A DNA stretch of 64,000 nt, taken from NCBI GenBank assembly GCA_964036195.1, contig OZ038456.1:21119792-21183791 (forward strand), written 5' to 3'. The stretch's first letter is position 1. Every line of letters begins with the position of its first letter. Shown in pieces: positions 19,599 to 46,800 of this stretch. The notes under the pieces are model-generated. The model was given only the letters and a program-made list of their open reading frames with translations. It had not been told where the DNA came from and searched no databases. This DNA comes from Sphaerolaimus hirsutus (taxonomy: Eukaryota; Nematoda; Chromadorea; Monhysterida; Sphaerolaimidae). The position numbers and the translations under genes were made by a program.

Positions 19599-22500
19599 AT
19601 GGAAACCGATATTTTCAACAATGTCAGGAATTTAAGCGCCACAAACAATGATTCGGGGGAGGTGATATTAGACGATCCAGAATTCGATGGATGTATCCCA
19701 GTGGAACCTTACGACGATTTGAGGCTGTTTTTGGTGCTGTGTTTGGGTACCCCACTCGCCCTCGCAGGTTAGCTGAGGTTCGGTGGGCTTGTTTATTTCA
19801 TCGTGTTTAAAGGCCGAAAGGTAAACCTTCAATTGGAGGTATTTTGGAACTGGGAACCGGAACCGAAGGTCGTACCCGACCGGAACCGAAGCTCATACCC
19901 GACCGGAACCGATATCCGAGATTGATACCCGGAACTGAAATCGCAAACAAAAAGATCCATGAACCGTTCCACGATTTTAAATAAAATTCCGTGACAAAAC
20001 ACATGGTTTGTGGGTTTGTGTTTGATCAGTTTCCTCGTGCAATCGTACAACTAATTAACTACTGGCATGCATAACAAAACGATAAAAAAACGGCCATGGT
20101 CTGGTGTCGTGGGCCGGGTCGTCGTTTTTATGTTTTCTTCTTTTTTGACCCGATACCTGACAATTCTATTAATCGAAAACATCTTGGAACCGAAAGAACT
20201 GAACCGGACCCAACCCAAACCTCATAACAGGAACCGATACCCGAACCGAAATTCTTCGGAACCGAGAACTGATACCCGAACCGAGAACCGAAACCAAAAT
20301 CAATGAAATTCACAACCCAACCCTACCCCCAAAACCGCCGCGCAGGTCTAATCACTAACCTATCGCTCACAATCCTGTTCTCGAGCCGGACCTACCGCGC
20401 GACGGGTCAAACGCTGTACTTCTGTTGCCTGGTGCCAGTTTCAAGTCCTGTAAAATATCCTGTAAAGTGTCAAATGTCATGCAAAGTGTCAAAAGTCATG
20501 GAAAATTTTCTGCAAAATGGCAAACACGTTTGCGATTTTCCAGTGCATTTTACATGACTTTAGACACTTTGCATGACATTTGACACTTTGCAGGGCATTT
20601 TACAGGGTGTGGGACTGCCCCCCGGCCGTGCTCGACGTGCTCACGTGCGTCATGTACGCGCTCATGTTCAGCCTCGACTGCGTGTCGGTGCACTGGCACG
20701 TGCAGTGGATCTATCATTTGTGGCACTCGTATACTATGCCCATTTATGCGGCTAGTAGAGTTGGTCGGTTGAGGGGGGGTTGGGGCTGGCTTGGGGTGTT
20801 GTTTTGGTTAAATCCCCCCTGTTTTTAAGTCTCATCTCATGGATCAATCAACTGAAATGACTCGAATTAAGACCCTCCAACCCCTTGAATAACTCCCTCC
20901 CTTGAATAACTCCTCCCCCTGAATAACTCCACCCTCAAAAACTGACGAGAAGCCCCCTGGGGCCAGATTTAATACTCCCTACAGATTTGTAGGGTAGGGC
21001 GTACGCCCGATGGATTTTTTGAAGTTCAGCCGCATCGACGCACATGCACCGAGAGCAAGGCGGTTTGTAAAATACACGAAACTATCCCTTAAGGTCGCCG
21101 ATATTGCAATATGACGTATATCGCTTCGATTATCGCCCGGAAATCACGATTTCGTCATTTCTTGGCCGTCTGCCAATTCGTTTCTTATTTTATTTTGTTG
21201 GACGGGTTACTCGCATAAGTCGCGCTTTTGTACGCTCGTGCATGCATTTCTTTCTTGTCGCTGCCCTCATGGTTTCGGTTGCAGACAGTGAACACTAAAA
21301 AAGTGACCACCTGACTACACAAAAGCGCGACCTATGCGAGTAACCCGCCCGACAAAATAAAATAAAAAACGAAGTGGCAGACGGCCAAGAAATGACGAAA
21401 TCGTGATTTCCGGGCCAAAATCGAAGTGATATACGTCATATTGCAATATCGGCAACCTTAAGGGATGGTTTCGTATATTTTACGAACCGCCTTGCTCTCG
21501 GTGCATGTGCGTCGATGCGGCTAACCTTTAAAAAATCTGTCGGGCGTACGCCCTACCCTACAAATCTGTAGGGAGTATTAAATCTGGCCCCTGGGGTCTA
21601 TCCCTGGGATATACGGTATTCTTTTACTTGGTGTTTATTTCAGCGATTTCATTCAACGCCTTCAACCTCAAAACCACGCTTAAAGACTTTGATCCGAAAA
21701 TAATGCAAAAAATAAAACACGCAAAATCACACAAATATAACTTTACACTAATTTCCCCCGCAGCATCGTTTGCCAGTGTCTACCTAATCATATTTGCCAC
21801 TCTGGAGCGGTTTATAGTGGTCATCAACGCTACAGCTTTATCCTGCATGCACCAGCTCAGATGCAGACAAGTTATCGTCGCTTCCATTTTTGCCGTGTCA
21901 CTGGTTTTAAGGTGTAATGCATTTCAGGTGTTGACTTTTGAAAGTCGATAAGTCCGAAATTTTAAAAATTGGGCTAAGGTTGGTCATCCAGGTCTCATAC
22001 TTTCGAATTAGGCATTTTCATTGTCACATTTTGACACTTTTTGATAGCTCCCAAAAATAAGGAAGAAGTCAATAATAGTGATGTAAAGGCACCGGGGCAC
22101 CGGTGCCCCGGTGCTGGGCACCGAAGGGCACCAGCACCGGTGCTGGTGCGGTGCCATTGCAATCTTCAGGGGTGCTATGCCGGTGCCGGTGCCATTTATT
22201 TCAGAATAGCACCGGTGCCGGTGCGGTGCGGTGCCATTTTTTTGCCGGTGCCAAAGGTGCTAGCACCATGGCCAAAGTAAAAGGCACCGGGAAAGGCACC
22301 GGCCAAGGCTTCATGTGCTGTGCAATTTTGTCCATAGTATGTGCTTATTCATATTTCAAAAAACAGCGATATATTTACCCAACCGTTTTTGCCTATTTGC
22401 CCATCAAATAAAAATACCTACTGTGAAGTCCATTATACCCGATACGTGATCTGATGAGTGAATCTAAAATTTTGTTGAATTTTAAATCATTTTTATATTT

Positions 22501-25500
22501 TATATTTATCTTACTTGTTTGTTCAAAATTTGTTGTCAGTTTATGGCAGAGATAGTTCCATTCTCTGTACAGCAACGACTCCGATCAGTAGACAATAGTG
22601 GCTATGGACATTGCAGTGAATTAAATATTTTATCTTTCATTTGTAATCATTGTAATTGCTTCATAAAAGTGATTGCCACATCATTCTGATCATTTTAAGT
22701 GCTCAACCATCAAAATCGGTTGAAAATTCATGGAAATATGCCCTTCCAAAGTTGAGACCACTGAGAAACTGCCCGATATTTACTTCAGAAATTCCAGCCC
22801 GGTGCGGTGCCTTTCGGTGCTAGCACCGGCAACCCGCCGGTGCCCTTCGGTGCCGGTGCCATTTTTTCGAAAAGGCACCGGTGCCGGTGAGGTGCGGTGC
22901 CATTTTCTGGCCGGTGCCCCAGGGTGCCAGGTGCTCTTTTCATGCGTTGGCAAAGGTGCCGGTGCGGTGCAGTGCCATTTTTCCCGGTGCCTTTAACATC
23001 ACTAGGACTCAATAACTCCTAAAAACATGAAAGTTGATAAAACCATTTAAATGCTAAAAGTCAATGATGAATTCAAAAAATTAAATCAAATCAAATCAAA
23101 TAAAGTTTACTCGGCTCGGACCTCTAGAGTCTAATGCGAGTAAATAAAACAACACACATTGAACATCCATCGATTATTTCTAAATTGCGGCCTTAAACAG
23201 GTGAGTTTCGAGCAACGCATAAGCATATTTATACCTACATCAAGGTGGTATCTGAATTAACTTAAATTGAAATTGAAATTGAAAATGGTGGAGGAGAAAG
23301 ATGAAAACTGTAGGAATCTAGAACATTCTAAGTAAAAGAAAAGAACGCAGCAGACAACATTGCCAGTAGCACCGAAATAAACACTCTAGAACCCCACGAC
23401 CCGGGTTTGAACTGCTCATAAAAAGCAATGAGCAACATAACAATTGCATGTTTTTAAATAAGGTAAAAAAAAGGAAAGAGATACATTCACAAAAGATGAA
23501 TCATACACGAAAATTGAACCATGTCAGTATATTCCTGAACCTTTCTTCATTCCATTTTCCGATACGTCTCCTACATTTCCAGAATTCTGTGTAATTGAGT
23601 TGTCCGTAGAAAAGGAAAGGTCATCTGTCCAAACAAAGTATTGCGAAAGATTGTTTTCCTTGTTTTGTTTACACTATTGCTGGTTTGAATCTATCCAAAA
23701 TTTGCCAAAAGAAATCCGATTTCCACAGTTTGCAGACATTATACACACTCATTGAACATCATTTACAGGAGATCTCCTAAATTAAGTCCATAAATTGCCC
23801 ATAATGCAAATTTACCAGGGTTAGCACAAATTTTTTGTCAATAACAATGTTCCGCAAAGTCCACTAGTTTACTGGACTTTCTGTCCTTTCTGTCTTTGGA
23901 CTTATCGACCTTTTGAAGTAGATACCTCATTTGTCACATTGTGACCATCACAAATGACAGTACCCATAAGCAGTGCATCATTACAGACTGCCTTCCTATT
24001 GGGAATATGAAGCAATTTACAGTCCGGAATGTCCAGGGGGCTTGCAGTCTTACAAATGGAGAGAGGGTCTGGCAAGATCAGAATTGTACAGGGAGCTAAA
24101 TGATTATTTTCTGTCACTTTTGAGAGTTTTTATGCCCTTTGCCATCTTGGTGGTGCTGAATGGCTGCATTATTGTGGCGTTGTCGAGGCAGCTCAAAAAA
24201 AATGACGTCACTAGAAGTTAGTGAAGGTTTGATTATTTTGTTCAGAATACTGTCTGACCTCAAAATACTATCATTCATAATAGCCCGCGGCCGCAATATC
24301 TTAGGGTTGGATAGTTCGAAATGAATTATTCTTTTGTCCATTATTATCCATAGACAAAATTCTGTCCCCCCCCCAAACAGTGCCCCCATGAACGACCCCT
24401 CAAAAATCTGATAACCCCAAATTACTCTATTTACTTCTGCTGGACTTTTGTTGCCCCATATTTTGGACTTTATAATTTGCACCCCCTTGAAAAATGCTCC
24501 CCTTCAATTACACCCCTTGAATAACCCCCCCCCCCCCTGTTAGACAAGTGAGGAAAAATAGTTCACCTTTAGGCAAATGATTAATTTGTCTGGTATGATT
24601 TGAAGCCACCTTGAATACCCCCCTTGAATAATCCCCCCTTGAATACCCCCCCCCCCCCCCTCGAATAACCCCCCCTTGAATAATTCCCCCTCAAATAATC
24701 CCCCCTAAAAAAAGTTTGATTAAGGAATAATTTCCCAGTGGAATTATTCAATTACATACAGTATCTACTAGAATTCAAGTACACACAGAAATATTCAGTG
24801 TGTCAATTGTGAATTTTATTCCGCAGGCGTTAGCAGCGCGGCAGCGACCGCCGCCGCACCGACATTGGTAATCACGCTGGAACCCTTAATCGATGATCAA
24901 TCACAACAATGCAATGATCAATCCAACCACCAGCAGAATCACACTGATGACGAATTGATATGCAAACAGCAGACTACCGTAACTTTGGGTGCTGCGAATG
25001 GCACCCAGGAGACGGAGATTACGGTGGATTTGTTGTCGCCCAGTGGGAACCCCAGCACGATTTTGGCTAGGAGGTTCGGTTTTATGGGGAATAGGTTTCT
25101 AGTGAAACTGGTGGCAATTTATTTACCATACATCCTCGAAAAAGCGGACCTCGAAAAACTTCCCCTTGAATAACACCATCTGTTACCTGTGTGAGAAAAA
25201 AATAACTCCTCCCTCTATTAACTCCCCCCTACTTTTGGGTGGGACGACTTATATGTATTTTAAAAAAGCTGTAAATATTTATGTGTACATTAGAAAGAAT
25301 GTATTCATTTGCAGCTGATTTTCACTAGGATTGATTTCATTGCATTTTATATTGATTCATGCATGAATTTAACTGTATTGATACAATATTGTTGATCATG
25401 CATTTTACTTGAAATTCTGAAGAAAAAAGAACTCCTTCCCTCAAATAACTTTCCCCCCTCGAATAACCCCTCTTTAATAAGTCCCCCCTCAAAAAATTCT

Positions 25501-26597
25501 GACAAAAAATAACTCTCCTGAGGACTTATTCGATGATATATGGTATTATTGGGTTCGGAAATCAGTTTAGATTTAACAAACATACAGAAAAAAAAACAGA
25601 AAAAAGACTCACTCACTCCTGTAAACTCAAAGTTAGAATTGATTTTCCAAAACTCCAACTTTGCAGAGCCACAGTGACAGTTCTACTAGTATCCAGTTAT
25701 CTAGCGTGCAGTGCCCTGGAATTCTTTGTAAAAGTTGTGGAAAAGTCTGACACATTAGCTTCGCTTTTCCTCGACGCAAATGGACATTCTACAGATTTGT
25801 ACAGATATCTGACTGATTTGATTAGCATTTTGGTGGTGCTCAATTGTGTGCTGAGAGTTGTTATCTATTGTATTAGTGACCCTTTTATCAGGTGCGTGAA
25901 AACGTGAATAGTGGTTGCAACGCGTGAAACAATCAGAAAACGTAAAACGACAAATTATTGGGATGCATAAAAAGTAAAAATGACTCATATGTATTGAAAA
26001 GGCAGCGAAAATAGAAGCATAATGACCAAATTTGTGATGTGTAGTGAAAGTGACTGCTCTCGCTTTGCTCACATTTCTGTTTTCCTGGGTACAAAATCGA
26101 AAAAAATACTTGCTTTTATGTTTTCCCTGAGTTCTTACTTATTCACCATTAGAAGTGTTAAATTAAAATTGTTCACTTTACGCTTTCTGTACTCAGTAAA
26201 AATATCTGTAAAATGAAGTACTTTACTTTTACTTTGAACAACTCTGCTCGTCACTTTCAGAACGGACCTGTGCTGCATCACACTAACCCCAATCAAACTA
26301 ATCTACAATTCGCTAAAAGGGCTGCATTCAAAATGCGATCGACTACTCACCGTGCACAAATCACAGCGAATCGACAATTTATCGACAATTACGAGGGCGG
26401 GCAATTTCAACACTGTCACTGAAACTGTGGAAAATACACCGAAAATGTGTGCGCGTATAACTGGCAGGGATGGGGGAACTGGGGTTGGGTGCAAATCCAG
26501 ACAGACTTGCAGCTGCACGGTTGGTGGCTGTTTTGTTGGCACTGCGATATTTGCTCTGTGTTACTGTATTTCTTCAAATAGAATCGCATACCTCTAA
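19599..26597 (+). CDS. FMRFamide-receptor-like GPCR (receptor 1), 8 exons
   Basis: Rhodopsin-family neuropeptide receptor, expected in the plasma membrane and signalling through G proteins. Exons: 19599-19767, 20346-20431, 20625-20754, 21764-21911, 23987-24216, 24827-25094, 25667-25891, 26261-26597. Together they give one open frame of 530 residues, and phases match at every junction. Exon 1 is an acidic extracellular start; TM1 spans exons 1-2 (LVLCLGTPLALAG, LITNLSLTIL); TM2 is VLDVLTCVMYALMF; TM3 ends with the E/DRY-type motif LERF. Extracellular loop 2 has WEYE and SPEC; TM5 is FMPFAILVVLNGCIIVAL. Exon 6 is a polar third intracellular loop. Exon 7 holds TM6-TM7 with NCVLRVVIYC, where family members usually have NxxxNxxIY. 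Intron 2 is an introner copy (acceptor CG rather than AG). The stop lies inside a repeat. The ligand class is inferred from overall resemblance only. Confidence 0.85.
19815..20336. mobile_element. CCGAAC-array repeat in intron 1 of receptor 1
   Basis: Two blocks of GGAACCGAAACCG/CCGATACCCG units (19848-19935 and 20185-20300) flank an AT-rich core. The right end is TTCACAACCCAACCCTA, like the hAT-like elements that end in CCAACCCTA. The left end is not clear. Confidence 0.55.
20432..20624 (+). mobile_element. Introner candidate in receptor 1 (intron 2)
   Basis: Begins GTGCCAGTTTCAAGTCCTG directly after codon CTG and ends GTGGGACTGCCCCCCG directly before codon GCC. The interior has inverted TGTCAAATGTCATG and CATGACATTTGACA arms. 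Removing exactly this segment joins a TM1-TM2 loop in frame (FCCL to AVLDVL). The 5' dinucleotide is GT, but the 3' dinucleotide is CG, because the flanking triplets are CTG and CCG instead of CAG. The nearest upstream AG (ending at 20606) would shift the frame. Confidence 0.8.
20960..21590. mobile_element. Large near-perfect palindromic element with CTG flanks
   Basis: The two arms (20960-21290 and 21300-21590) are reverse complements for most of their length: GGGCCAGATTTAATACTCCC at the left, its inverse at the right. Both flanks read CTG. The end GGGCCAG and the CTG flank resemble the introner family, though the interior differs. It is nested in a decayed family C repeat (about 20865-21618) in intron 3 of receptor 1. 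Confidence 0.8.
22076..23004. mobile_element. hAT-like element with GGTGCC arrays (family E), copy 1
   Basis: Ends TAGTGATGTAAAGGCACC and inverted GGTGCCTTTAACATCACTA. Arms of GGTGCCGGTGCC units (22088-22310 and 22798-22990) flank an AT-rich core. A second copy with very similar sequence lies at 45479-46418. It lies in intron 4 of receptor 1. The flanking 8-mers do not match cleanly here. Confidence 0.85.
23005..23986. other. Rest of receptor 1 intron 4, no feature
   Basis: AT-rich intron sequence up to the acceptor at 23985-23986. A short stretch at 23085-23140 (AATCAAATCAAATAAAGTTTACTCGGCTC) resembles 33005-33050 and is probably a dispersed repeat. Confidence 0.5.
24362..24760. mobile_element. 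MITE, family C, in receptor 1 intron 5
   Basis: C-run units CCTTGAATAACCCCC and CCCCTTGAATAATCCCCC at both ends, with a short GACAAGTGAGGAAAAATA segment between. Right end near 24760 (ATTCAATTACATACAGTA). Confidence 0.55.
25122..25545. mobile_element. MITE, family C, in receptor 1 intron 6
   Basis: Left end TTACCATACATCCTCGAAAAA; right end TTATTCGATGATATATGGTA, its imperfect inverse. C-run units at both ends. It lies between receptor 1 exons 6 and 7. Confidence 0.7.
26035..26245. mobile_element. AGTAAA-type hAT-like repeat, end fragment
   Basis: Ends TTTACTTTGAACAACTCTG, the inverse of the CAGAGTTGTTnAAA terminus, just upstream of receptor 1 exon 8. The left part holds ACTCAGTAAAAATA units. 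Left boundary uncertain. Confidence 0.45.
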
Positions 26598-26985
26598 TAG
26601 AACGGCACCTCCAATAGAACGGCAGGTTTGGCACTTTTTTGCATTCACAAAATTAATAGAATGGCTGCCTCCATCCAATAGAACGGCAGGTAGAAATTAG
26701 GTTGGAAGAGTGCCAGAACACACAAATATTAGAAAAGTGGGTGGTGAGAACATACAAGGTGTTCATAACTATGATTTAGGTTTTTTTTCACATTCGGTTT
26801 TGTTTGAATTGATGCTCTTGTTGTAAAATATTGTTCATTTTTCATTAAAAACACTACAGTAAAAACAACATATTTGTGAAAAAATAGACTGGCAGCCTCC
26901 AAGAGAATGGGCCCCACTAATAGAATGGCAAGTAAAAAAGTTGACAAAAAAAGAACTGCGCTCTTCTATTAGAAGAAATACGGTA
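26561..26985. mobile_element. MITE, family B, overlapping the 3' end of receptor 1
   Basis: Inverse of 12479-12912: starts TTACTGTATTTCTTCAAATA and ends ATTAGAAGAAATACGGTA, with GAACGGCAGG units. The last 12 codons of the receptor 1 frame and its TAA lie within this repeat. Confidence 0.85.
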
Positions 26986-27090
26986 TTCGGGTCTATGTTA
27001 TTTGGCCCCACAGTGAACAATGGAATGTTTCATTCATTTCCGATGAACGGGTCCAATTATTCGGTTCTGGCAATGTAGAAATGAGATGCT

Positions 27091-27353
27091 TACCGTATTT
27101 CCTCGAAATACCCCCCCTTGAAATACCCCCCCCCTCACAATGGGCACTATGTATTTGTGGTCCGGGAAATGCATAACAGACGTTCAAAACACTTACTGTG
27201 TTACGTTAGAACATCGTTTATACCATCTACATCCTTTTATAAGGCTGTAAAAACTTGTAAATGATGGTTATTGTTGCATTTTTCACGTTTTTCTCTCAAA
27301 ATTTCCACTCTGAAAAAATAAACCCCCTGGGGGTATTTCGAGGAAATACGGTA
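27091..27353. mobile_element. MITE, family A
   Basis: TACCGTATTTCCTCGAAATA at the left; TTTCGAGGAAATACGGTA at the right. The AT-rich core with ACGTTAGAACATCG and TATACCATCTA is shared with the copies at 2789 and 31553. Confidence 0.85.
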
Positions 27354-27475
27354 TTTTCAGTCACCCATTTAATCTTTCCACTGAATTTTTAATCAATTTT
27401 TTTATTTCAAATTTTTGGCTAGAAACCCACTTTAATTATTACTTGTCTACTGCGCAATTGGCTTTACGCCAAATT

Positions 27476-30400
27476 TCAGCGTTCACTGAGTGCAGCCGCA
27501 TCAAAATCGACAGTTATCAATGGGCCTCCTGCAAAGGGCAATCCTATTAGCACATCGGCCAGAATTGTAAGAAAAAACCAAGATCACTTACCCATGACAT
27601 TGCAAGCAAACGATTGTGAATCATTATTGTGAACTGAAGATTAGTTAGAAAATTATATAATAAAATGTTTTTGCATATTAAACCCATTATTATTAGAGTT
27701 TTTGGGTTTAATCCAAAGGGTATTTCGCTTTTTCGCACTTCATTTTTATTTACTGGATAGTGGTCGGCTTTCCACCGATATAAAACCGATTTTAATGAAG
27801 CGATTCGAATAAATACAAATAATAGCTTCAACATTTTATTTTCCTCCAAAACCCACAGCCACTATAAATATTATCTACTGACCAACAGTTGTTAAAATGT
27901 ACTTACATTTACTCGACAAATGCGTATACTCCAGTATAATTTGTAAATACACATAAAGTACACGTACAGCAAAAGTACACGTGTACAGAAAACTAAGTAA
28001 AACGGATGGCACCCATCACACTATATATTGAAACCTACTGTAACGCATACGAAAAATGTACAAGAAGGGAACGTTATATTTACATAGTTTCAATAAAATA
28101 TTATTTTACACGGAATTTATCACATGACATTATTCATAAAATTATGGTAACATTGTGTACAAACAGGGCGTGAAATGGTAAGTTGCAGCATAGCGAAAAA
28201 TGAAAAGCGTTGAAATGATAAATTGACTTTGTTACCTCAATTTTTACGTGAACAATCACAGCCAAAGATTGACATGAATCGCTGAAAAATCCCTTGAACA
28301 CATCAACCATTCATTTTTTTGCAAAGCTGTAACCCACCCAAAAAAAACCCCAAATTTTCAACACTTTTCATTCAACAATTCAACCAATGGCGACAGTACA
28401 TCTGACACAATAGTAGCCATATTTTTAACCAAAATTACTTGCTTTTCAGTCCCAGCGATCGCAACCAATGATTTCATGTCTACAGGCTTCAAAAATCCAT
28501 TGATACCCGGAATTCCCACGGCGAAAATGTTCAAATTCGGGTATTTCGATCTCAGTTGCGCGGCAATTTCCGCTGGCGGCTTGCCAATACTGTATCTGCA
28601 ATATTTGGCGATTTTCCAAGATTATTATGTTTGGTTGGGGCCAGATTCTTGGAAACTTGGGGCCAGATTCAATTGGGAAGGGAAGCCAGCACCCTACGCG
28701 TAGGGTTCAAACGGACTAGGTTTCTTGGATCGGGACCTGAAAATCGCAGCATTTGTCTGGACTTGCTAGTGAGTGCGATCGATTTTGGATTTTACCTACA
28801 CACAGTTCACTGTGTCATTACAGAAAGTTTTTCAGACAAGTACCAATATTTAGTTCAACCCGGGCATTTTACATGACTTTCGACACTTTGCATGACACAT
28901 GACATTTTTCAGGGCGTTTTACATGACGTTTGACCCTTCACATGACACTGGATATTTTACAGGGCATTTTACAGGATCCGGGATCGCCCACCGGTGGTGG
29001 TCGAGATTGAATTTGGCCCCTTGTGAAATTTTTTTGTCAAAAACGTACCGCCCATCACTGAATAGAACCACTGCGGCTGGCACATTTCCCCTGGCAAAGT
29101 TCAGCACAAAATCGGAATAGGATAGTGCCCTGCGATGTGAATAAGTGGGAAACTGAGTGTTAACGAGTTTTTGAAAAACGTTTGAATTTTTAGTCGTTTT
29201 TTTACATAAATCTTACTCGCAGGAACTAAAATGTAAAACTAAAATTTTACACTGCTAAAATGTGGTAACGTATTGCTATACAATTCTGTGGAACGAAACC
29301 GTCTGATAACGCCAAGTCTAACTCGCAGCATGAAAAAACCGCAATAGAAAGTTGGCACTGGTCCAAAGAAATGTAAAGTGGTTTAATTCCTCTAAAATAA
29401 ATATAAGAAAGGATGAAATTTAACATTGAAACGAAAAGAGTCAACTTTTAAAATACTAATTTTAGACACTTGTTTCTATCTGGTCCAAAATTGTTCAACT
29501 AAAGTCATTAATCCACTAAAATTAAAAAAAGTCCCAAAACTTTGCCAAATTTCCACTCACAGGCCAATATTAGTCACCCCAGTAGTATACGGCATATTTA
29601 ACACCCCCATTTGCATTTCCGTCATATCATCAAAAGCGTCCAGCAAAAATTGATATCTGATCATTTCATTGTATTCGACCAATGCGAATCTAGTGTTGTT
29701 CTGGGATATTTCGAAGCGGGTGCCCATGTTGAAGAGAAACAGTTTTATCTGCGAGCGGTTTTTAATATTGTAAAGAAGTGCTGAATAGTGATGGCAAAAC
29801 GCCAGTAAAAATGGTGCCAGGTGCCAATGGCGCCACAGAAAAGGGTGCCAGGCGCCAATGGCGCCATGGCGCTGACGCCATTAAAGGGCGCCATTCAATC
29901 ACTAGGTACTGCTGAATAATGGAGGTTTAATGAAGTTAATTTAACTCAAGAAGTGCAGAACAAAGGCTGCCTCTGTAAACTGGTTACCGTATTTTTCTAA
30001 TAGAGGGGAACACCGTTTATTTTTCGACATTTTTACCTGCTGTCTAATATTGTGGGTGCCCTTCCGTTGGGGGTGTGCCATTCTATCAGAAGAAATACGG
30101 TAGCAAACTAAAATATCAAAATTGTCAGGAATCCTTTTAAATATCATGCAAATTCTCTCTGCTTAATGACTTTTTCCCATTTAAGGACAACCAAACCCAA
30201 TGACACGACAAAACTACCGTATGTCCTTGACTAAAACCCCCGGCCCCGGGGAGTTATGTTTTCATCACGTTTTTGAGGGAGGAGTTATTCAAGTGGGGGA
30301 GACATTCAAGGGGGAAGTGATTTGTTTCTCAGTTGCCCAACAGGTGGGCGTTATTCAAGGGGGTCTTTTTCAATGGTATACGGTATGATTCTCCTTGATT

Positions 30401-31158: not shown

Positions 31159-31552
31159 TTTTGAAGAAAAAATGATATTTTTAACAAAACTGGCAGGATA
31201 AGTTTCGATCTGTTTGATGTTCACTGTGATTCAAATGTTCCACTTCTAACGTGGCGAAATTCAGCGCTTTTTATAGCGTCCCGAAATCTGTGGGTTTATT
31301 TATTTATGATGATCAAACAACTCAAGTGGGCGTTTTCGAACGGAATTTTTTTTGAATCATTAAAACATGATCTGTATAATCTGAGGCATGTGTCACTGCC
31401 AAAATATTATTGCACTTTAAACTTGAAATACCGTAACATGCGAAATTTCGTTTTATGTCGCCGCATTACTAATAAAAATTGCCGCTGCGATGTTGTAAAA
31501 ATTTTAAAAAAATCCGCATTGTGGGTGGTCGGCAACGTTGTTAAAACGTATT

Positions 31553-31817
31553 TACCGTATTTCCTCGAAATACCCCCAGGGGGTTTATTTTTTCAGAGTG
31601 GAAATTTTGAGAGAAAAAACGTGAAAAATGCAACAATAACCATTATTTATAAGTTTTTACAGCCTTATATAAGCATGTAAATGGTATAAACGATGTTCTA
31701 ACGTAACACAGTAGGTGTTTTGAACGTCTGTTATGCATTTCCCGGACCACAAATACATAGTGCCCATTTTGAGGGGCGGTATTTCGAGGGGGGGGGGTAT
31801 TTCGAGGAAATACGGTA
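31553..31817. mobile_element. MITE, family A
   Basis: TACCGTATTTCCTCGAAATA at the left; TTTCGAGGAAATACGGTA at the right. The core matches 27091-27353. Confidence 0.85.
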
Positions 31818-31956
31818 TATTTGAAAGATGAGTAGATGAGTAGGTACTGAGTAAATACGTTTTGATTTCCTCTTAAAAACGTATTAGTACTCGCGTTTAC
31901 ATATACTTTTTGAAAGTACTTGAGTACAGAAAACGTATTTTAAATGGGCTTTTATG

Positions 31957-34788: not shown

Positions 34789-34935
34789 TGTTAAAAAATG
34801 GGTACATCAATTTCCCATTTAAATGTTTCATTAGCTTAGTTTAGCACTTAAAAAATGTAGAATAATTTATAGATTATCTTAACATTTAATCAAACTGCAC
34901 AACTTGCAAAACTATAAAAATAAATTATTTAAGAA

Positions 34936-37900
34936 TCAATTAAAGCCATCATCAACATAGTCATCATATTCAGCCAAAACTGGACTAAACACTGTCAAAA
35001 TGAGCACAAAAACCACAGCTACTACAAAGAAAAACCAGAAAAAAAGACAGTCTAACACCGCTGCAGCACATTGCCATTCCAAAATGATTTTCATTTCCCC
35101 AATGGTCTTCAGTTGTTGTTCACTGGGAATTGGTGCATCATTCTTGTCATCTTCACCAGAGCTGGCCTGTCAAGTTAAATGCAACCGATGTTTGGCAGGT
35201 GATTTTGGCACTATTCCAAAATCTATATTTCTAGTTTTTCAACCTGAATTTCATTGTGATATAGGAGGGCCACTGTTTCCTTGGGTGTCCTCATGCAACA
35301 AAAAATGCCAAATTTCTTGACAAATAGCCAGTACATCCTGAGGGCACTCTCAGACCCTGTAAAGTGCAAAGTAAAGTGTCAGATGTCATGCAAAATATAA
35401 ATCAAAACAAAAAAGAAAACATTTAATTGCTGATCTTTGCAAAACAATTGACTTTATTCTACATTTGTCATGACAATTGACGTTTTAATGACATTTGTCA
35501 CTTTACTTTACACGTTACAGGGTCTGGGATTGGCACCAGGCAGGCATTCTGTAATATAGCCCAGCATGATGAAATTTGATGACCTGTTATGATATATTGA
35601 TAACGATTTTTTTGTCATTCATCAATAAAGTAAAATTGAACTTAAACACACCAAAACATTGGCAGCAATAGCACACAGCATGAATATGAATACAAATACT
35701 ATGTAGTCATCTGCATAGAATGATAATTTTGGTAATTTTTATTCTCCATTCCACTGTAAAAATTTCCACTCACATATTATGGGTACAGTTCTGCCATGAG
35801 GCACGTTTGAGCCAAGAAAACATGCATAGATTGCAAAAATAAGCATTGCAACCACTCCTAGTGTAACCTTCTCCTTTGAACTCGCCTGTGTATTGTGCAA
35901 AATGTGTCACTTTTGTGTTGTATTTACAACACCAATAAACCAAACATACTGGGAGTCTAAACATAAGCAGTGTCAAGATAATTGGTAAAATACATGGCAG
36001 CACTATGTGGAGGGTATAATTGCTGTGCCTTCTTCTCAACATCAAATACAAGCTCACATCTGGGTAGGGCTCCGGACAGCATGCATATCTGTGAGATAAT
36101 GATGGGACTGATTGAGTTAGTAAAATACTTCAACTAGCAAGAACTCAAGTTACAAAATGCAAAAGAGTCAATTAACACCAATATCCTCCGTTTAATCCTG
36201 GTACTTGTCAAAAGAAATGTTTTGTGGTGGATATAATCTCCCAAATTAGCTCCAGGGGGCAGTCCCAGACCCTGTAAAAGACACTGTAAAGTGTAAAAAC
36301 CCCTGTAAAATGTCATGTGTGATTTAAAAGATTCTTTAAGATTTGGATATGACACGATAAGATTTGGATACAAATGACACTTTACATGGTCTTTTACATG
36401 ACACCTGACATTTTACAGGGTATTTTACATGACGCATGACATTTTACAGGGTATTTTACACTTTACAGGGTCTTTCACAGAGTCTGAAACTGGCACCAGT
36501 CTCAACACTGTCACTTGTCGTTGTTAGATCCACGTGCCACCCATTATAGGCCCAAGTGCCAAATTTGAGCTTGCACCATTGGGCATCAAAAGGGTATAGG
36601 GTAAAATTCATTTTGCACACTGCAGTAAATTGTCTGTATGGGGCATGGCTCACTGTCCCATCGGAACGGACAGATGCTCTATAGTCTCTATGCTCTAAGT
36701 CTGGGTCTTTTGCTCTTCCCGCTGGCTGTGCACTGTATTGGGTCACTGTTTTTATTTCTGTTTTCAATGAGTAATAAAATTTTATGCATGTCCTGTGATG
36801 GATGTTTTAGCGTGAAAACCAGGGGAAATCAATGTTTTATGTACAAACAACATCTGGGTGCAGTCCCAAGCCCTGTAAAGTGTAAAGTAAAGTGTCAAAT
36901 GTAAAGTCAAATGCAAAGTGTCAATCATAACAAAAAAAGAAAAGATTTTATCACTGAACTTTGCACGACATTTGACAGTTTACTTTGCATTTGACTTTAA
37001 ATTTGACAGTTTACATTTGACACTTTACTTTACACTTTACAGGGCTTCGGACTGCCACCAGTTGTCACTATTCTGCTGAAGTATTGTCATGTACAAAATG
37101 ATGTCATGGTGCATTTCAAAACACTTCCAGTACTTTTCCACCAAAAATCCATCTACAGGACTGACAGGCAACAGCATAGAAAAAATTCACTTATTAAACA
37201 GCACTACATCAGGCATCCAAATTTTGCTCACAGGCACCACAATAGTCTCTATACCACCAAATTCTGTAGCATTCCATGTCAGCAATTCATCAACCCAACT
37301 CTGTTCAAACCACACAGCTGCAGTTATCAATTCTTCATTTTCATCCACATCCAGGTGCCAGTCTCAGACCCTGTAAAATGCCCTGAAAAATGTCAAATGT
37401 CAAACAAAGTGTCTAGTCATGTAAAATTGCAACTTGTTTGTCATTTTCAATCAAATCAAATAGAATTATGCTTACCACCCATCAAATCTTTACCACCCAT
37501 ATCGGCTACTCTATTTGCGGTCCTACATAAAGCATGGTCATTTTGCAGTGCATTTTCCATGACTTTGGACACTTTGCTTGACATTTGACATTTTACAGGG
37601 CATTTCACGGGGTCTGGGACTGCCCCCAGGTGAAGTAGACTCAAGCTCAACTGCAACTTGACAGGGGTGCTGGCATTTTTCACTGGTCTCACATGTCGAT
37701 TGTAAGAAGACAAGAGGTGTTTCAGAAGTATGCTTTCTGCTGCCTGGGGCTTGTTGTCTGTACCTGTATCATTGATAATCTTAGATTATAATGGCGGAAC
37801 CCCCCCCCCCCACCCTCGAAATAGTCAAGAATAGCTAACAATCTTCTAAAAAGCATATGAGCTAGTGAATTTGAAGGTGAAAATGGGCAGAAAGGTATGA

Positions 37901-38340: not shown

Positions 38341-38495
38341 TTTTAGACTATCAATTCAAGTGGAAACAATAAATTATTGAATTCACTGGCAAATTTGTTT
38401 ACAGAGAAATGCCACTTCAACAGAAACCTCAAAACTGGATAGAAGACAGCTGTATTTTCGACAACTGTTCAGGGAAGTTATATTGCAGTCAAACA

Positions 38496-38649
38496 TCGTG
38501 TTTCTTCTAATAGAACGGCATACCTCCATCCAACAATTAAGATAGAACGGCAGGTTTTTGCACGTTAATGCACTTGCGAAAAGAATATCACGGCAAATCC
38601 ATGTTAACTAAAAATAGAATGGCGCCCTTTTGTTCTAAGAAATACGGTA
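38496..38649. mobile_element. MITE, family B, decayed
   Basis: Left end near ATCGTGTTTCTTCTAATAGA; right end TTCTAAGAAATACGGTA; GAACGGCA units inside. Lies about 150 bases upstream of the nicotinic receptor start codon. Confidence 0.7.
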
Positions 38650-38782
38650 TTATACCCTTTATTTCACTCCGTATTTTATGTATAGCTTCATAGGATGCTA
38701 ATTTTCTCAAATCGACTTCGTTTGTCCTTAAAAACAATGGATCGGCAAATTTTTTTTATAATGCACGTTTTTTCAAGACCTG

Positions 38783-39009
38783 GGGCCAGTTCCGCAAATC
38801 GAGAAGTGAGAAGTAAAATGGCAAATGCGACGTTAAATGGCAAAAGCGAAGTGAATTGAAAGGTAAAATGGCAAAAGCGAAAAAAACTGTTTTTATTATT
38901 ATTATTTTTACTTCGCCTTTCCAATTTACTTGTCATTTCACTCCATTTTTGCCATTTTACTGCGCTTTTGCCATTTTACTTCTCACTTCTCAATTTGCGG
39001 AACTGGCAC
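38783..39009. mobile_element. Element with introner-like ends but different interior
   Basis: Ends GGGCCAGTTCCGCAAATCG and inverted TTTGCGGAACTGGCAC, flanked by CTG (38780-38782) and CAG (39010-39012). The interior is GTAAAATGGCAAAAGCG and its inverse. The outer 11 bases and the C(A/T)G flanks match the introner family; the rest does not. It does not interrupt a gene that I can see. Confidence 0.7.
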
Positions 39010-39171
39010 CAGAGATACCCCTCAAAATGACTTCCAGTCAATTTCATCACATGAACAGAAAACAGAATCATATGGAGGGAAACAGAATAAATAATGGTAC
39101 ATGATACCAAATATTTATAAAATTTGTAAAGGATATCATCCGGTAAATATCTATAGTTGTTAAAACGTAAA

Positions 39172-39274
39172 CACCGTATGTCCTCACATTACCCCCCGGG
39201 GGGTTTATTTTTCCAGAATGGAAATTTTAAGGGGGGGGGGGTCAAACGAGGGGGGTATTTTGAGGAAATACGGT
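39172..39274. mobile_element. MITE, family A, short copy
   Basis: ACCGTATGTCCTCACATTAC at the left; TTTTGAGGAAATACGGTA at the right, inside AGTAAA-type repeat sequence (about 39149-39595). Confidence 0.75.
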
Positions 39275-39598
39275 ATTTACGTTAACTCGAAAAATACGTA
39301 AGGCTTCTGTAGAAGGGAAAAAGGGAGAGAAAAGGCTAAAAATGAAGCAAAAATCGCCAAAAAGCTGTGTACCATACACATATATAGCCAACAATCGCCA
39401 ATGGTGGTGTTTGAAAATTCGTGATTTTTAGTGAAAATTAGGCCGAAATATTCCCTTTTGTGTTTTCTTGAGAAAAAAGTAGTTATTTCACCCACATTTA
39501 CTCATGAGTAAAACTAAAATAAATACTCTGAACTCAGAGCCAGGGCCAGTAAAAAAGAAATACATTAATTACGTTACAGTACAGTTTTGAAAGTTGTG

Positions 39599-40053
39599 TA
39601 CCGTATATCCTCAAATAAGACTCCAGGGAGTTATTGTTTCGTCAGAAGTTTTGGAAGGGGAGTTATTGAAGGGGGGATGTTATTCAAGGGGAGGAGTTCT
39701 TTTCCCTCGGAACTTTCACTTTATTCGTTGTATGAATGCAGTGCATCAACTCATATTATCCAGGTATTTAACAGTCAAACAACAACCAAAACAAGGTATT
39801 CATGCTGAAATTGATGTTCATCGGCATGTGAATCACTCAAATACACATTGTGGATACACATACCAAATACCCAGAGGGGGAGTTATTCAAGGGGAGGAAT
39901 CATTTTTTCCTCACCTGGCCAACAGGGGTGAGTTATTCAAGGGGGGATGTTATTCAAGGGGGGATGTTATTCAAGGGGGATGTTATTCAAGGGGGATGTT
40001 ATTCAAGGGGGGATGTTATTAAGGGGGTGGACTTATTCAAGGATATACCTTTC
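39599..40053. mobile_element. MITE, family C, with a tandem array
   Basis: TACCGTATATCCTCAAATAA at the left; TTATTCAAGGATATACC at the right. Between 39915 and 40035 the 16-17 base unit GGGGGATGTTATTCAAG is repeated about six times in tandem. Confidence 0.8.
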
Positions 40054-40149
40054 ACAACTCTGTACATATCACATGGGTTTAAGAAGCTTGGCCGTTGCCA
40101 GGTGCAAAATTCAACTAGCCCAGGGCTAATTTTTTGGAAGCTCATAAAG

Positions 40150-40313
40150 CTCAGGGGTCGGGATCGTGATCACGGAATCGGGATTTGAAAACTTTCGGGA
40201 CCGGGACCCCGATCTGGATTCGTTTTTTGATGTTTCGGGATTGAGATCGTAATCGAGACTGCCAAATCCAGAAATTTTCCGAGATTCGGTATCCGGATCC
40301 CGCTTGAACCCTA
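40150..40313. mobile_element. GATC/CGGGA-array repeat
   Basis: Units CGGGATCG, GGGACCGGGACCCCGATC and GAGATCGTAATCGAG. The right end reads CCCGCTTGAACCCTA. A related block lies at about 61695-61830 (CCCGATCCCGATCCC ... TTGAACCCC). Confidence 0.5.
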
Positions 40314-40318
40314 CTCAC

Positions 40319-40609
40319 TCGCCCATTTGGCGCCTTGCATTCGATTGAATTCGTTCCCAGGGGGCAGACCCGGACACTGTAAAATGCGCTGTAAAGTGTC
40401 AAATGTCATGCAAAGTGTCGAAAGTCACGGTTGTCATTTTGCATAGCATATTCCATAACTTTTGCCATTTTGCATGACCTTTGACATTTTACGGGGTCTG
40501 GGATTGGCACCAGGCGACATTGCGCGGTCATTTGAAAACGGAAAGCTGATATCGCAGCGAAACCATCTGGAGGATGCTGAAATATTCCATTTTCCACGGC
40601 CATTTGCAT
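40319..40609 (-). CDS. Unidentified small coding segment split by an introner
   Basis: Minus strand: ATG at 40609 (or 40603) opens VENGIFQHPPDGF and FRFQMTAQCRL to 40511. An introner (40361-40510) follows, then GTNSIECKAPNGR to 40319, which ends at a strong donor (CGA then GTGAGTAGG). Exact excision of the element keeps the frame. I recognise no family. A plus-strand frame is also open over 40511-40640, with a GGTAAATAA at its end, but it lacks an upstream acceptor. The segment is head-to-head with receptor 2, 200 bases away. Confidence 0.4.
40361..40513 (-). mobile_element. Introner candidate in the unidentified minus-strand gene
   Basis: Minus strand: CGCCTG then GTGCCAATCCCAGACCCCG, ending GTCCGGGTCTGCCCCCTG then GGAACG. 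CTG lies on both sides. Short copy (about 150 bases) with TGTCAAAGGTCATG arms. GT start, TG end if excised exactly. Confidence 0.7.
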
Positions 40610-40812
40610 GGAGAATTGAGAATTCAAGATGTCGCTTGGTAAATAAAACACGATTTTAGTGTCAAATGTCAAATTGCGGGAAATGCAAAGAGAAGACTGT
40701 TTGACTATTTATCTACCTACAGTAAGCGCATTTTTCAGTACGCAAAACCTCAGTCGAATAATATATAATGTGAATTGATATTTTTGCCAATTCCAACTCC
40801 TAAAAAATTAAA

Positions 40813-43800
40813 ATGCACAGTTACAAGCGAAATATAATTTTTATCACAATTGTCATACTTCACTGCATTTGCTCGAAATCAAAAGCAGAAAATGATAAAA
40901 ACCACACTGATAGTGATGAGGAGAAAAGTGTTGAAGCGGTTTTATTAAATTCAGTTTCCAACATTTCGTGGCAGTTGACCAGCAGGGAAATTGGCAATGA
41001 AAATGATTCGATGGTTATAGGCGGCGTAATTTCAGATCTCGGTTTCGATGAAGATTTTGTGCAGTTGCACGAGAATGGATCGATTGATGAAAGCCAGGTA
41101 GGCATTTGCATTCATACACAGCAAAAAATGGGTGTGTGTGATGAGCGGTGAGGTGTCGTGAAGTGTCTTCACTCAGGCACTAAGTGTCAGCACTAAACAC
41201 GTCACTGTACATCCAGACGCTTCACGGCGCTTCACAAACTATAAAAAGTATTCAGCGATGATTCGTGAAGTGCGCTTCACGAATTTTGTTTGTTGTGATG
41301 ATAAGTGAAGTGTGTGGAAGACACTTCACCTCAAATTTCGTGAAGCGTGTGCGTGTGAAGCGTGAAGGAAGTGCATGGAAGTGTCTTCAAAAAGGTTTAC
41401 GGTCCCCAGAATTAATTTATGGTGAAGTGCCTTCCACATAGTTCACATAGCTTCACGTCCAAATATCCGCGGGATACTTACCGATGTTGATGCTTTCACG
41501 CACATCGCCAACATCTCAGTGCTCCAACAATTTACCAATCCACTTATTATTACCCTCACAATAAAAAACATGTAAAACTTCAATCCAATATCCTCTTTTT
41601 TCCAGTCAGCCACATCATCCAGGTCCCACTCCCATACTTTGTAAAAGACCATGTAAAGTGTAAAAGACCGTGTAAAATGTCATGTAAAAGACCCTGTAAA
41701 GTATCAAATGTCATGTAATAAACCCTGTAAAGTGTCATGTGTATCTAGGGTTGGGACGATATGACTTTTCGATATCGATATTCGATATTCGATATTTTTT
41801 CCTGAAACTCGATATTCGATATCGATACGATATGGACCCTCGATATCGATATTCGATATTCGATACTAAAAAATGCTCGATATTCGATATCGATATTTCG
41901 ATATTTTCGATATTTCGATATTTTGCTTTTGGTATAGCAGGGCATATCTCATTTCCATTTGATCACAAACCCAACTGATCATCTCTACTGAAAAGTAGAT
42001 GATACAAATTTAAATGGCACACAATGATCAAAATGAGAAAATGATTTAAAAATGTGACAGATGTGGTAAGGAAAAGGTGCCAGCCCCATTTATAGGTGCC
42101 ATGCCATGGTGCCATTGATGTTTCCATGGTGTAAGTATTTATTTAACATACATATACTCTTATGTGAACATCTGAGAGAGCATTTGCACAAGATTTGATG
42201 CTGCCACAAGTGCTGAAACAAAAACACCTGTCATGTGAGAACAAAGTGCGCGCTTGCGCGCAAAATTTGTTAAAATTGCTTATGAAATCGCCTTCTAATA
42301 GTGCCATTCCTGGCTTATTTGAAGTCAGGCCCAGGGAGTATAGAATATCGAAAATATCGAAAAAAATGGTCGATATTCGATATCGATATTCGATATTTTT
42401 TCAAAATTTTCGATATCGATATTCGATATTCGATATGAAAAAATAGTCGATATCCGATATTCGATATTCGATACGATATATCGTCCCAACCCTATGTGTA
42501 TCCAAATATTATTTTATCGTATCCAGATCTTATGTTTTTGTATCTTAATCTGACTTTTTGACATAAGAGTTGAATACAAAAACATAAGATTTGGATACAA
42601 TAAATAAGATTTGGATACAATAAATGAAATAAATAACACATGACACTTTACTTACATAACATTTGACACTTTACAGGGTCTTTTACATGACGCATGACAT
42701 TTTACACAGTCTTTTACATGACACATGACATTTTACACGGTCTTTTAAACTTTACAGGGTCTTTTACATGACACATGACATTTTACGCGGTCTTTTACAC
42801 TTTACACGGTTTTTTACAATGTCTGGGAGTGCCCCCAGGTGCCGCAGGCCGAGCATTTTTACCTTCCCTACACGTTTCTACACAATTCTGCTATTAGGTA
42901 CAAGTGTTGCTACATTGTCTCTGTGCAACAATGCGCTATTGGCGTGGCTGTTTGCTACTAGATTGCAGACTAGACAGTTGGTTTTTGGTGGTGTTTATAT
43001 TTGTGAGTGTGATAGGGAGAGGGAATTTAGGAATGTTAACATTACAATGGCCTGGGGCAGTCCCGCACACTGTAAAGTGTAAATAAGTGTGTTGAAGGTC
43101 AATAAAAATGAAAGAAAAGATTTTATTACTGAACCTTGGTCATTTGACAAAATTTGTATGTATGATCAATTTATATGACATCTGACATTTTACTTTAGAC
43201 TTTACAGGGCATAGCTAGCTGTAATTGAGGGGTTTTCAGGATTTTGACCATGAGGGAGGTTCAAATACATCCATTCAACGGTTCTAAAGCACTCCTCCTA
43301 TATAGATAGCTGGACTAAAATTATTTAAGGCCAATTGTTTAGCAGGTTTGAAGGTCAAATTTGGTGAAAGTTTATGAAAATTAGCGATTTTGAGTGAAAA
43401 TTGGAACATTGCTACAAATAAATTCGCTTCAAATACACATTGAAGTAGATAAATAGCTGGGGTTTTTGGGGCCCCCCACTATGATTCCACGAAAACTCAT
43501 CACATTGAAGCATATCATAGCACCAAAAATCTAGCCGATAACCCATCAACTCCCAGATGTCACCTGCTCTTTCTATCCATGATGGCCTGGTGCCACTCCC
43601 GGATCCTGTAAAATACCCTGCAAAATGTCAAATGTCATGCAAAGTGTTAAAAGTCATGGAGAATGCCCTGTAAAATGATAAAATCAATTTGTTCACCATT
43701 GTTTACCATTTTCCAAAGCATTTCACATGACTTGACACTTTGCATTTCACTTGACATTTTCCAGGGCATTTCACAGGGTCCGGGAATGCTCCCCGGTGCG

Positions 43801-46800
43801 ACATGCTCGCAGCGGCCGCATACATCCTTCTATTTCCGATAGAAATGTTGTCGTTCAGTTATGACCTGTATTGGATGTATGCCAGCTGGGTGCACTATGT
43901 CAGGTGCCAGCCCCAGACTCTGTAAAATGCCCTGTAAAATGTCAAAAGTCATGTAAAATGCCCTGCAAAAAGGCAACTGGGTTGCCATTTTGCAGGGCAT
44001 TTTACATGACTTTTGACACTTTGCATGACATTTTACATTTTACAGGGTCTGGGACTGCCTCCAGGCCGGTATATACCATCACTAATGTTACTATGGCCGC
44101 GTCCGCTTATTTGATTATGGCTGCGGGGGTTGAGCAGTTTAGGTGAGTTGAAGACTTTAAATGGTGCACTTCCAAGAGGAGAAACTCTGGGTAGTGGTGG
44201 CGCCAATTGAGGATGCTCATGAGAGAAAAACACATCTTTGATGTATTTCAGAGTAAAAATTGAAAAAACACCAATTTTTAGGTCATTTTTATGAAAAAAA
44301 TACTCTTTTTTACGTTTTCTGTGGGAAAAAATACCCATTGTTACATTTTCTCTGGAAAAAAGTATTTTACTCACCTTTTATGCAGTGTAAAAGTAAAAAA
44401 TAAAATACTTTACGTTTTCTGTACTCATCTGTGAGTAAAATAAGAATACTTCGAGTTTTCGCCTACTTTAAAAGTACTGTACTTTAAACAACTCTGGCTA
44501 AAAAGACATTTTAAATAAAAAATGATAGGTAAATAAAAAATTACAGTAATTTTTGTCACGCCACCTTACCTTCTCTTTACCACGTCTACAATTTTCCGCC
44601 AAACCCCAAAATCTCACTTTCAAATTCACACTGAATCCACAGATCAATGAGCGAAACCGAACAGGAAGAAAACGCCGGGAAGGGGCTTGGAAATCGTGCA
44701 CTTATAAGGCGTTTTCTGTGGGCGGCGGGGGCGTTTGCGATCGCGATTTTCACAATGGTTGGCTTAAAAGTTGTGATAATTTTTAAGAGTGTTGGTGACA
44801 TTCGTTCCGCAAATTCTATAGGTACCTGGGCCAAAATTCAATGGCGCTGCGCACACTAGTTTACTCACAGTTAACTTAAGGGGCGTTTACACTGAGACGT
44901 GTGCCGACAAATTTTTGTTGGGCTTTCAACTTTTCTTAGATCCACGAAAATGGAATATTTGTTGTGTCAGACACCTGGATCTCGATCACTCTTTTTACCT
45001 AGGACGAACATCAATTTTCATATATGACGTAATCATACACATTTAAAGCTGCGTTTACACTGACACGTGTGACGACAAAGTTTTTTTGGGCTTTCAACTT
45101 TCGTTATGTGACAAAAATTGAATATTTGTTGTGTCAGATACCTAGATCTCGATCACTCTTTTTGCCTAGGACAAACATAAATTTTTATATATGACGTGAT
45201 CATACACAATAAAAGAAACAAGAAAATTTGTCGTCACAAGTTGTCGGTTCGAGTTGTTCCCGGGAGCCTCGTTAACGAGGCTCCCGGGAACAACTCGAAC
45301 CGACAACCTGTGACGACAAAAATTTTGTTTCGTTTTATTGTGTATGATAACGTCATATATAAAAATTTATGTTTGTCCTAGCCAGAAAGAGTGATTGAGA
45401 TCTAGGTGTCTGACACAACAATTATTCAATTTTCGTGACATAAAGAAAGTTGAAAGCCCAAAAAGTTTTTGTCGTCACTAGTGATGTAAAGGCACCGGGG
45501 CACCGGTGCCCCGGTGCTGGGCACCGAAGGGCACCAGCACCGGTGCTGGTGCGGTGCCATTGCAATCTTTAGAGGTGCCATGCCGGTGCCGGTGCCATTT
45601 TTTTCAGAATAGCACCGGTGCCGGTGCGGTGCGGTGCCATTTTTTTGCCGGTGCCAAAGGTGCTAGCACCAGGCCAAAGTAAAAGGCACCGGAAAAGGCA
45701 CCGGCTAAGTCTTCATGTGCTGTGCAATTTTGTCCATAGTATGTGCTTATTTATATTTAAAAAACAGCGATATATTTACCCAACGGTTTTTTGCCTATTT
45801 TGTAAACATCCCATCAAATAAATATACCTACTGTGAAATCCATTATACCCTATACGTGATCGGATGAGCGAATCTAAAATTTTGGTGAATTTTATATCAT
45901 TTTTATATTTTATACCTATTTATCTTACTTATTTGTTCAAAATTTGTTGTCAGTTGATGACAGAGATAGTTCCATTCTCTGTACAGCAACGACTCCGATC
46001 CGTAGACAATAGTGACTATGGGCATTGTAGTGTATTAAATATTTTATCATTCATTGGTAATCATTGTAATTGCTTGATAAAAGTGATCGCCACATTATTC
46101 TGATCATTTTAAGTGCTCAACCATCAAAATCGGTTGAAAATTCATGGATATATGCACTTCCGAATGTGTGGCCACTGAGAAACTGCCCGATATTTACTTC
46201 GGAAATTCCAGCTCGGTGCGGTGCCTTTCGGTGCTAGCACAGGCAACCCGTTGGTGCCCTTCGGTGCCGGTGCCATTTTTTCCAAAAGGCACCGGTGCCG
46301 GTGCGGTGCGGTGCCATTTTCTGGCCGGTGCCCCAGGGTGCCAGGTGCCCTTTTCATGCGTTGGCAAAGGTGCCGGTGCGGTGCGGTGCCATTTTTCCCG
46401 GTGCCTTTAACATCACTAGTCGTCACACGTGTCAGTGTAAACGCCGCTTAACAAAAAAATATTTGTCGTCACAGTTGTCGGTTCGGTTCATGGTGATTTG
46501 TTGTATGCAGCCTCGTTAACGAGGCCACCGGGGACAAATCACCATCAACCGAACCGACAACCTGTGACGACAAGTTTTGTTAACTCATCACTCATAGGTA
46601 TATCAGATTGAAAGCAATTGAGTTTACACGAAGGCGGTGTCTGTGTAAACTAGTGATGGAAAAAAGACATGGCGCTGGCGCCTGGCGCTAGCGCCAAAGC
46701 AAAAAGTGTCTGGCGCTTTCTGCGCTTGGCGCTTTTTTTCTGTGGCGCCAGGAACAAAATTCTTGGCGTCGGCGCTTGGCGCCATTGTGCTGTGCTTAAC

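Follow-up and report, generated by a model that had tools for sequence, protein, structure and literature searches.

The window, a 64,000-nt stretch of the genome of the nematode Sphaerolaimus hirsutus (contig OZ038456.1, positions 21,119,792 to 21,183,791), carries a family of hairpin-forming DNA elements, and several copies lie inside the coding sequence of receptor genes. On balance we favour the view that these copies are introners, i.e. NuwaI-like hairpin elements that insert mainly at CCWGG (W is A or T) and would be removed from pre-mRNA as introns by the spliceosome, including the copies whose 3′ site lacks an AG. An earlier interpretation of the window, made from its letters alone (the sequence-only reading), had proposed an intron-generating DNA transposon family. 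The terminal inverted repeats (TIRs), the 3-bp duplications and the introner-like behaviour of the copies agree with this proposal. Two properties had been missed. The GT end appears to lie nearly always on the sense 5′ side, and about half of the coding copies that we can place seem to have no AG acceptor. The anatomy of the element, its target site, its place within conserved coding sequence and the register of its junctions are read directly from the DNA.

Element anatomy and copies in the window

Copies in the window are named E plus number, sampled genomic loci L plus number. A repeated two-ended element family is indeed present: a 17-mer from the terminus occurs 11 times in the window at up to 3 mismatches versus 0.04 expected, and a 14-mer from the arm occurs 46 times at up to 2 mismatches versus 0.95 expected. 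We count nine two-ended copies and four that are one-ended or decayed (near 9516, 28990, 43054 and 55441). The element is 150–272 bp long, with the exception of E416 (1213 bp), which holds another repeat inside. One end carries GTGCCAG (T end), the other GGGGCAG (G end). For the eight copies that were folded, hairpins of −52 to −123 kcal/mol are predicted, without shuffle control. Read with the T end first, all nine two-ended copies have CTG or CAG as their left triplet. On the right, seven have CTG or CAG and two have CCG (at 20622 and 43793), so that the C(A/T)G flanks proposed earlier hold throughout on the left side and only in part on the right. Left and right triplets are unequal in 4/9 copies, and taking out the element together with one triplet leaves CCWGG as the empty site in 6/9.

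The outer 60-nt arms of the window copies share a mean identity of 70% (T) and 75% (G), with 88% for the best pair and 92% for the best 62-nt stretch. As the arms are only 70% and 75% identical on average, the window copies are not recent copies of each other, and their former description as active or recent is not supported.

Seven copies interrupt the coding sequence of identifiable genes, where five or six had been reported: one in receptor 1 (E20), three in receptor 2 (E416, E435, E439) and three in a nicotinic subunit (E353, E362, E373). The gene at 40.3 kb, previously named as a further host, is not confirmed; E403 was rejected as a coding copy, with both strands open across it and neither matching Pfam. 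E368 was rejected as well, as it sits in an ordinary intron of the nicotinic gene. The copies are as follows (TM, transmembrane segment).

20432..20621, + strand: E20, candidate introner in receptor 1 TM2 (FCCL^AVLD); CTG, then GT...CC, then CCG; GT..CG with one triplet out
35341..35536, − strand: E353, candidate introner that divides the Trp codon of MPAW in the nicotinic subunit; CTG, then GT..., then CAG; GT..AG
36256..36496, − strand: E362, candidate introner in the variable loop of the nicotinic subunit; CTG/CTG; GT..TG
37355..37626, − strand: E373, candidate introner in the nicotinic subunit before DVDE; reversed, its GG end being 5′ in the sense direction; CTG/CTG
41623..42835, + strand: E416, candidate introner near the receptor 2 N-terminus; CAG/CAG; GT..AG; in frame, in a non-conserved stretch
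43590..43792, + strand: E435, candidate introner in receptor 2 TM2 (MMAW^CDML); CTG/CCG; GT..CG
43904..44061, + strand: E439, candidate introner in receptor 2 (VHYV(R)PVYT); CAG/CAG; GT..AG
36857..37058, − strand: E368, copy within an ordinary intron of the nicotinic gene
40361..40510, strand not assigned: E403, copy; CAG/CAG on the + strand
43054..43210, + strand: E430, one-ended copy in a receptor 2 intron; right limit approximate
55441..56326, + strand: E554, decayed copy; right end degenerate, limit approximate
28868..28990, strand not assigned: E28, one-ended copy within a VWA-domain gene; left limit approximate
9500..9516, − strand: isolated terminus

Other repeats occur in the same stretch. 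The repeat nested in E416 at 41755-42495 is of a different kind and rich in ATCGATATT motifs. Two more elements with inverted repeats, flanked by CWG and ending in GGGCCAG-type sequence, lie at 20960-21590 and 38783-39009. The latter has a GTGCCAG end on one side, which may mean that GT ends arose on several occasions. Two repeats that resemble each other and abound in GGTGCCGGTGC motifs are found at 22080-22990 in a receptor 1 intron and at 45430-46410 further along receptor 2, and a fragment of a retroelement reverse transcriptase lies at 7580-8736 (weak RVT_1 match, below cut-off).

Host genes and junction register

The nicotinic subunit is open across its modelled exons and has Pfam matches to the ligand-binding domain (165.6 or 172.7 bits) and to TM1–TM3 (53.7 bits), while TM4 was read by eye; a protein search gives six matches with at most 33% identity. 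The match of receptor 1 to 7tm_1 is weak (23.3 bits, short of the family cut-off), and a protein search with this receptor returns nothing at E ≤ 0.001. Receptor 2 is a paralogue of receptor 1, as judged by eye and via L051. The ordinary introns modelled in the window host genes are GT-AG in 10/10 cases; these ten, not every intron, were modelled by hand with GT and AG sought, and the count shows no more than that canonical introns fit the frames. Among 20 joined reading frames, chosen by eye and searched against Pfam, OSCP1 is a strong host, with two copies within one domain, and 2OG oxygenase, zinc finger and VWD matches are weak. In a paralogue of the nicotinic acetylcholine receptor (nAChR; L061:380-685), an intron of ordinary appearance has a copy at its 3′ end, and the CAG of the copy may be the acceptor there.

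Nine copies within a conserved alignment form our stringent set of junctions: E20, E435, E439, E353, E373, OSCP1 copies 1 and 2, the copy in an ALKBH7-like gene and L054:2049. Taking out the element plus one triplet yields a gap-free join at eight of them, the exception being E373. For OSCP1, this register scores 143.3 bits, compared with 137.0, 132.7 and 136.7 bits for three alternatives (6 to 11 bits lower) with equal spans of 17-105 on profile 1-89. For E353, the Pfam match to Neur_chan_memb reaches 53.7 bits with one triplet out and 45.5 bits with both kept. The ALKBH7-like protein aligns gap-free with 4qkd at the junction. L051, an uninterrupted receptor exon in which no element was found, aligns gap-free at the E20, E435 and E439 sites; its only gap lies upstream of them, and the matched span contains one in-frame TGA. 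L054:2049-2282, aligned by eye with receptor 2, is gap-free through VERY/VEQF, with a right end one base shorter than usual. The in-frame rejoining of conserved protein noted earlier is thus upheld for FCCL-AVLD and VHYVR-PVYT. It holds less well for LLHL-DVDE at E373, which comes out one residue shorter than its homologues and fits better with both triplets kept; the homologues and the uninterrupted paralogues L057 and L067 carry one extra residue at this site. Judging from human CHRNA7 exon lengths, both E353 and E373 presumably lie off the old nAChR intron positions.

Predicted intron ends and the 3′ AG

The duplicated triplet determines the predicted intron end: with CAG the intron is GT-AG, with CTG or CCG it has no AG. 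With one triplet removed, E439, E353 and OSCP1 copy 1 have GT..AG ends, E20 and E435 have GT..CG, and OSCP1 copy 2 (KLYDL^MTMA), the ALKBH7-like gene and L054:2049 have GT..TG. E373 has GG..TG, which becomes GG..AC when both triplets are kept. Among the placed copies that are not in the stringent set, E416, L054:1176, L034 (weak Pfam match to a zinc finger) and L025 (weak Pfam match to VWD) are of the CAG type, and E362 and L062 are of the CTG type with possible AG alternatives nearby. Over all homology-placed coding copies, 8/15 are without AG and 7/15 have it.

Polarity and enrichment in coding sequence

Of the 15 homology-placed coding copies, 14 have the GT end 5′ in the sense direction (two-sided p = 0.001). 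A codon-usage strand test (917 training codons) is too weak in GC-rich loci and was not used; the GT-last candidates that it suggested (such as L037, which would be GC..AG, L035 and L033) are unconfirmed by homology and were not counted. Genome-wide, the triplet 5′ of exact T ends is CTG in 646 and CAG in 744 cases (CAG 54%), and the triplet 3′ of exact G ends is CTG in 610 and CAG in 883 cases (CAG 59%); the two sets are not made up of identical copies and include non-coding ones. We read the shift towards CAG at the 3′ triplet as a sign of mild selection for AG with TG tolerated, which would speak for the spliceosome.

Copies are in excess in coding sequence, both in the window, relative to a CCWGG baseline, and in a sample of 44 copies. 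In the window, 7/9 two-ended copies (p = 1.6e-5), or 7/13 with fragments included (p = 4.7e-4), lie in coding sequence, which makes up 8.2% of the bases and 11/86 of the CCWGG sites (occupied ones included) at approximate coding limits. Reading frames that cross the 44 copies (9 from the window) are longer than those at 295 CCWGG controls (p = 6e-7). They reach 80 of 100 codons in 73% of the copies, 42% of the controls and 32% of the shuffled flanks; the flank GC content of 52% for copies versus 44% for controls inflates open frames in part, and the shuffles preserve base composition.

Genome-wide copies and transposon family

A search of the organism's own genome (348.5 Mb, 762 contigs) at up to one mismatch gives 6279 occurrences of the T end and two of the reversed control. 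Copies were sampled by exact T ends on contig C1 and at receptor-paralogue loci (L001-L048, L051, L053-L056), and a pair was called when both ends had at least 20 of 24 matches. The 55 sampled pairs have CTG/CTG (17), CAG/CAG (14) or mismatched or other triplets (24), which points to a CWG target-site duplication (TSD). Some sampled copies have perfect termini. In the TIR consensus, one end starts with GGG and the other with GTG.

NuwaI transposons (PHIS/PIF-Harbinger) of animals have CWG duplications and terminal GGG (PMC4482050). The present family shares the CWG duplications, the animal host and a terminus with GGG; it differs from NuwaI in that its copies are non-autonomous, one end is GTG instead of GGG, the hairpin is long and no transposase is linked. 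On its sequence features, the family probably belongs with the NuwaI-like (PIF/Harbinger) elements, as a non-autonomous hairpin form that inserts mainly at CCWGG and duplicates CWG.

The genome contains 163 DDE_Tnp_4 matches, for example C1:20514088-20514720 (L071). Most of those listed have near-identical scores and the same four in-frame TGA. The copy that was read by eye looks like exons with two ordinary GT..AG introns, and its in-frame TGA fall in those two stretches. The family ends are absent within 671 nt of this copy. An autonomous partner would be expected to combine a DDE transposase and a Myb/SANT protein with GGGGCAGTCCC ends and to be flanked by CWG duplications. The search for a partner with the same ends linked none, with no ends common to the 163 DDE_Tnp_4 matches shown and no Myb search made. 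An exact scan of viral and GTDB contigs with a 19-base piece of the terminus found none (the own genome was possibly left out), and within the window neither Rfam, at the gathering threshold, nor a tRNA scan gives any hit.

Proposed mechanism and alternative explanations

We infer from sequence that the copies are removed from RNA. The T end would supply the 5′ splice site, with GTGCC in one terminal repeat where the other has GGGGC, and the duplicated triplet would supply the 3′ end of the intron. A CAG triplet would give an ordinary GT-AG intron that is workable at once; a CTG or CCG triplet would lead to removal at the same place, with a 3′ splice site used without AG. We think that the agent would be the spliceosome, aided by the long hairpin that brings both ends together, and that a divergent U2AF1 paralogue perhaps aids AG-less 3′ site choice. 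Two U2AF1 genes are found in the genome, at C14:3032343-3038013 and C16:15183255-15191469. A further match, C720:101293-108657, probably represents the C14 gene on a contig of the other haplotype. The gene on C16 is divergent, with identities to human of 72% (residues 15-50), 45% (75-116), 74% (115-156) and 52% (133-185); its exons are open, with GT and AG at the intron ends (by eye).

Several points weigh against this proposal. A standard U2 spliceosome should rarely accept non-AG ends, and 6/9 stringent junctions have no AG (AG in 3/9). E373 is reversed, with GG at its 5′ side, and scores 172.7 bits with both triplets kept versus 165.6 bits with one out. Only a few bases separate the start of the paired stem from either splice site, and the stem could get in the way of U1 and U2AF. 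Other animals, too, not rarely have a second U2AF1 gene (U2AF1L4 in mammals). The CAG shift at the 3′ triplet is significant (p = 0.0026) but small. In addition, the placement of L034, L025 and L054:1176 is weak, and the frames for homology testing were chosen by eye.

CTG-type copies occur in conserved genes despite the standard rule; either the 3′ site is chosen without AG or excision is non-spliceosomal. The second route could resemble SOS splicing, in which paired terminal repeats are recognised. This metazoan pathway excises transposons from mRNA (review, PMC13247085); here, hairpin-directed excision would cut out the element independently of the spliceosome, and RTCB would join the exons. 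The strong terminal hairpins predicted for the eight folded copies, the non-AG ends of the stringent junctions and the fit of E373 to exact element removal are all in line with it. By inference from pairing-based recognition, such a substrate should ignore orientation and AG, yet GT comes first in 14/15 copies, CAG is favoured at the 3′ triplet, and the register is triplet-exact at 8/9 stringent junctions. Spliceosomal AG-less choice fits better because of polarity, and polarity together with the 3′ CAG shift would favour the spliceosome over orientation-blind hairpin excision. We thus regard an SOS-like route as unlikely.

Poorer still, in our estimate, are the chances that ordinary GT/GC-AG splicing removes every copy by using shifted sites, with proteins that carry small insertions, deletions or changes. 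Such sites could be a GC donor located 2 nt into the element and paired with an internal TTTTACAG acceptor (+7 residues) or an AG just downstream (1 to 5 residues lost). Each of the 14 copies enumerated has an in-frame alternative (7 with GT only, 7 with GT or GC). The cost can be low: E362 loses one codon with a GT..GGAG alternative, and a downstream AG costs 1 residue in the ALKBH7-like gene and 5 in L062 (by eye). The nearest GT-AG alternative of E20 nets +1 residue but replaces YFCCL by VWDCPP. Conserved, otherwise gap-free stretches are altered by the alternatives for OSCP1 copy 2 (KLYDL^MTMA) and for TM2 of receptors 1 and 2, and inspection by eye finds no AG near the L054 junction. We consider it very improbable that the copies in coding sequence inserted recently and disrupt their hosts, or that these hosts are pseudogenes. 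A duplication-making transposon always yields an in-frame empty site, which exact removal would merely restate, and perfect termini are seen in some sampled copies. Against this, the window copies have diverged (70–75% mean arm identity) while the host exons are open and conserved, several genes including OSCP1 would all be broken, and coding sequence is enriched for copies, not depleted.

Relation to known systems and significance

The components have already been described one by one: introners, NuwaI, dinoflagellate hairpin introners, larvacean non-canonical introns and human TG acceptors. Introners as described by Gozashti et al. 2022 (PMC9860276) are TIR/TSD repeats that create introns and usually leave mRNA length unchanged, and they are reported from two animal groups only. 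As expected of introners, many similar copies occupy different intron positions here (15 homology-placed coding copies, 6279 termini), and removal restores the coding sequence at 8/9 stringent junctions. The likeness extends to the splice sites, one coming from the element and the other co-opted from the duplication. In contrast to our finding that about half of the placed copies are without AG, the available text of that report has rare GC and GA 5′ sites and does not mention loss of the 3′ AG.

The introner elements of Amoebophrya (PMC7789003) likewise have inverted repeats, boundary direct repeats of 3-5 nt, non-GT-AG ends and predicted hairpins. Amoebophrya is a dinoflagellate with >60% non-canonical introns, whereas the modelled ordinary introns here are GT-AG and neither GT nor polarity is lost from the element. 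Fritillaria (PMC13326754) is an animal with duplicated and diverged U2AF subunits; its introns are 95% non-canonical with AG/AC and AG/AT commonest, in contrast to GT with CAG, CTG or CCG from one family. Nonconventional introns of the euglenid Euglena (PMC11170887) share base pairing of their termini and, close to the 5′ end, a CCAGG motif, but the text consulted describes no GT polarity for them. Human TG 3′ splice sites (PMC2374985) belong to U2 introns with a TG end, yet are alternative sites in 36 genes and no transposon-made class. Among the open-access matches listed, we find no animal Harbinger-type introner with CTG acceptors. For introner plus Harbinger, a match on fungi is without the present combination, which is also absent from the best 10 of 202 open-access matches on GT-TG introns and transposable elements.

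Tentatively, and with less confidence than in the introner assignment itself, we suggest that one transposon family may have given rise to a genome-scale class of GT..TG and GT..CG introns, in which the terminal hairpin and a diverged U2AF1 paralogue would replace the AG. Any CCWGG in any gene could then become an intron in one step, whichever strand W is on. The origin of new introns is an old question, and here donor, acceptor, target site and copy age are readable directly in an animal. The CAG and CTG duplications amount to a natural experiment in which one intron comes in a form that has AG and a form that lacks it; OSCP1 contains both. This makes AG-independent 3′ splice-site choice, and spliceosomal versus hairpin-directed excision, directly testable.

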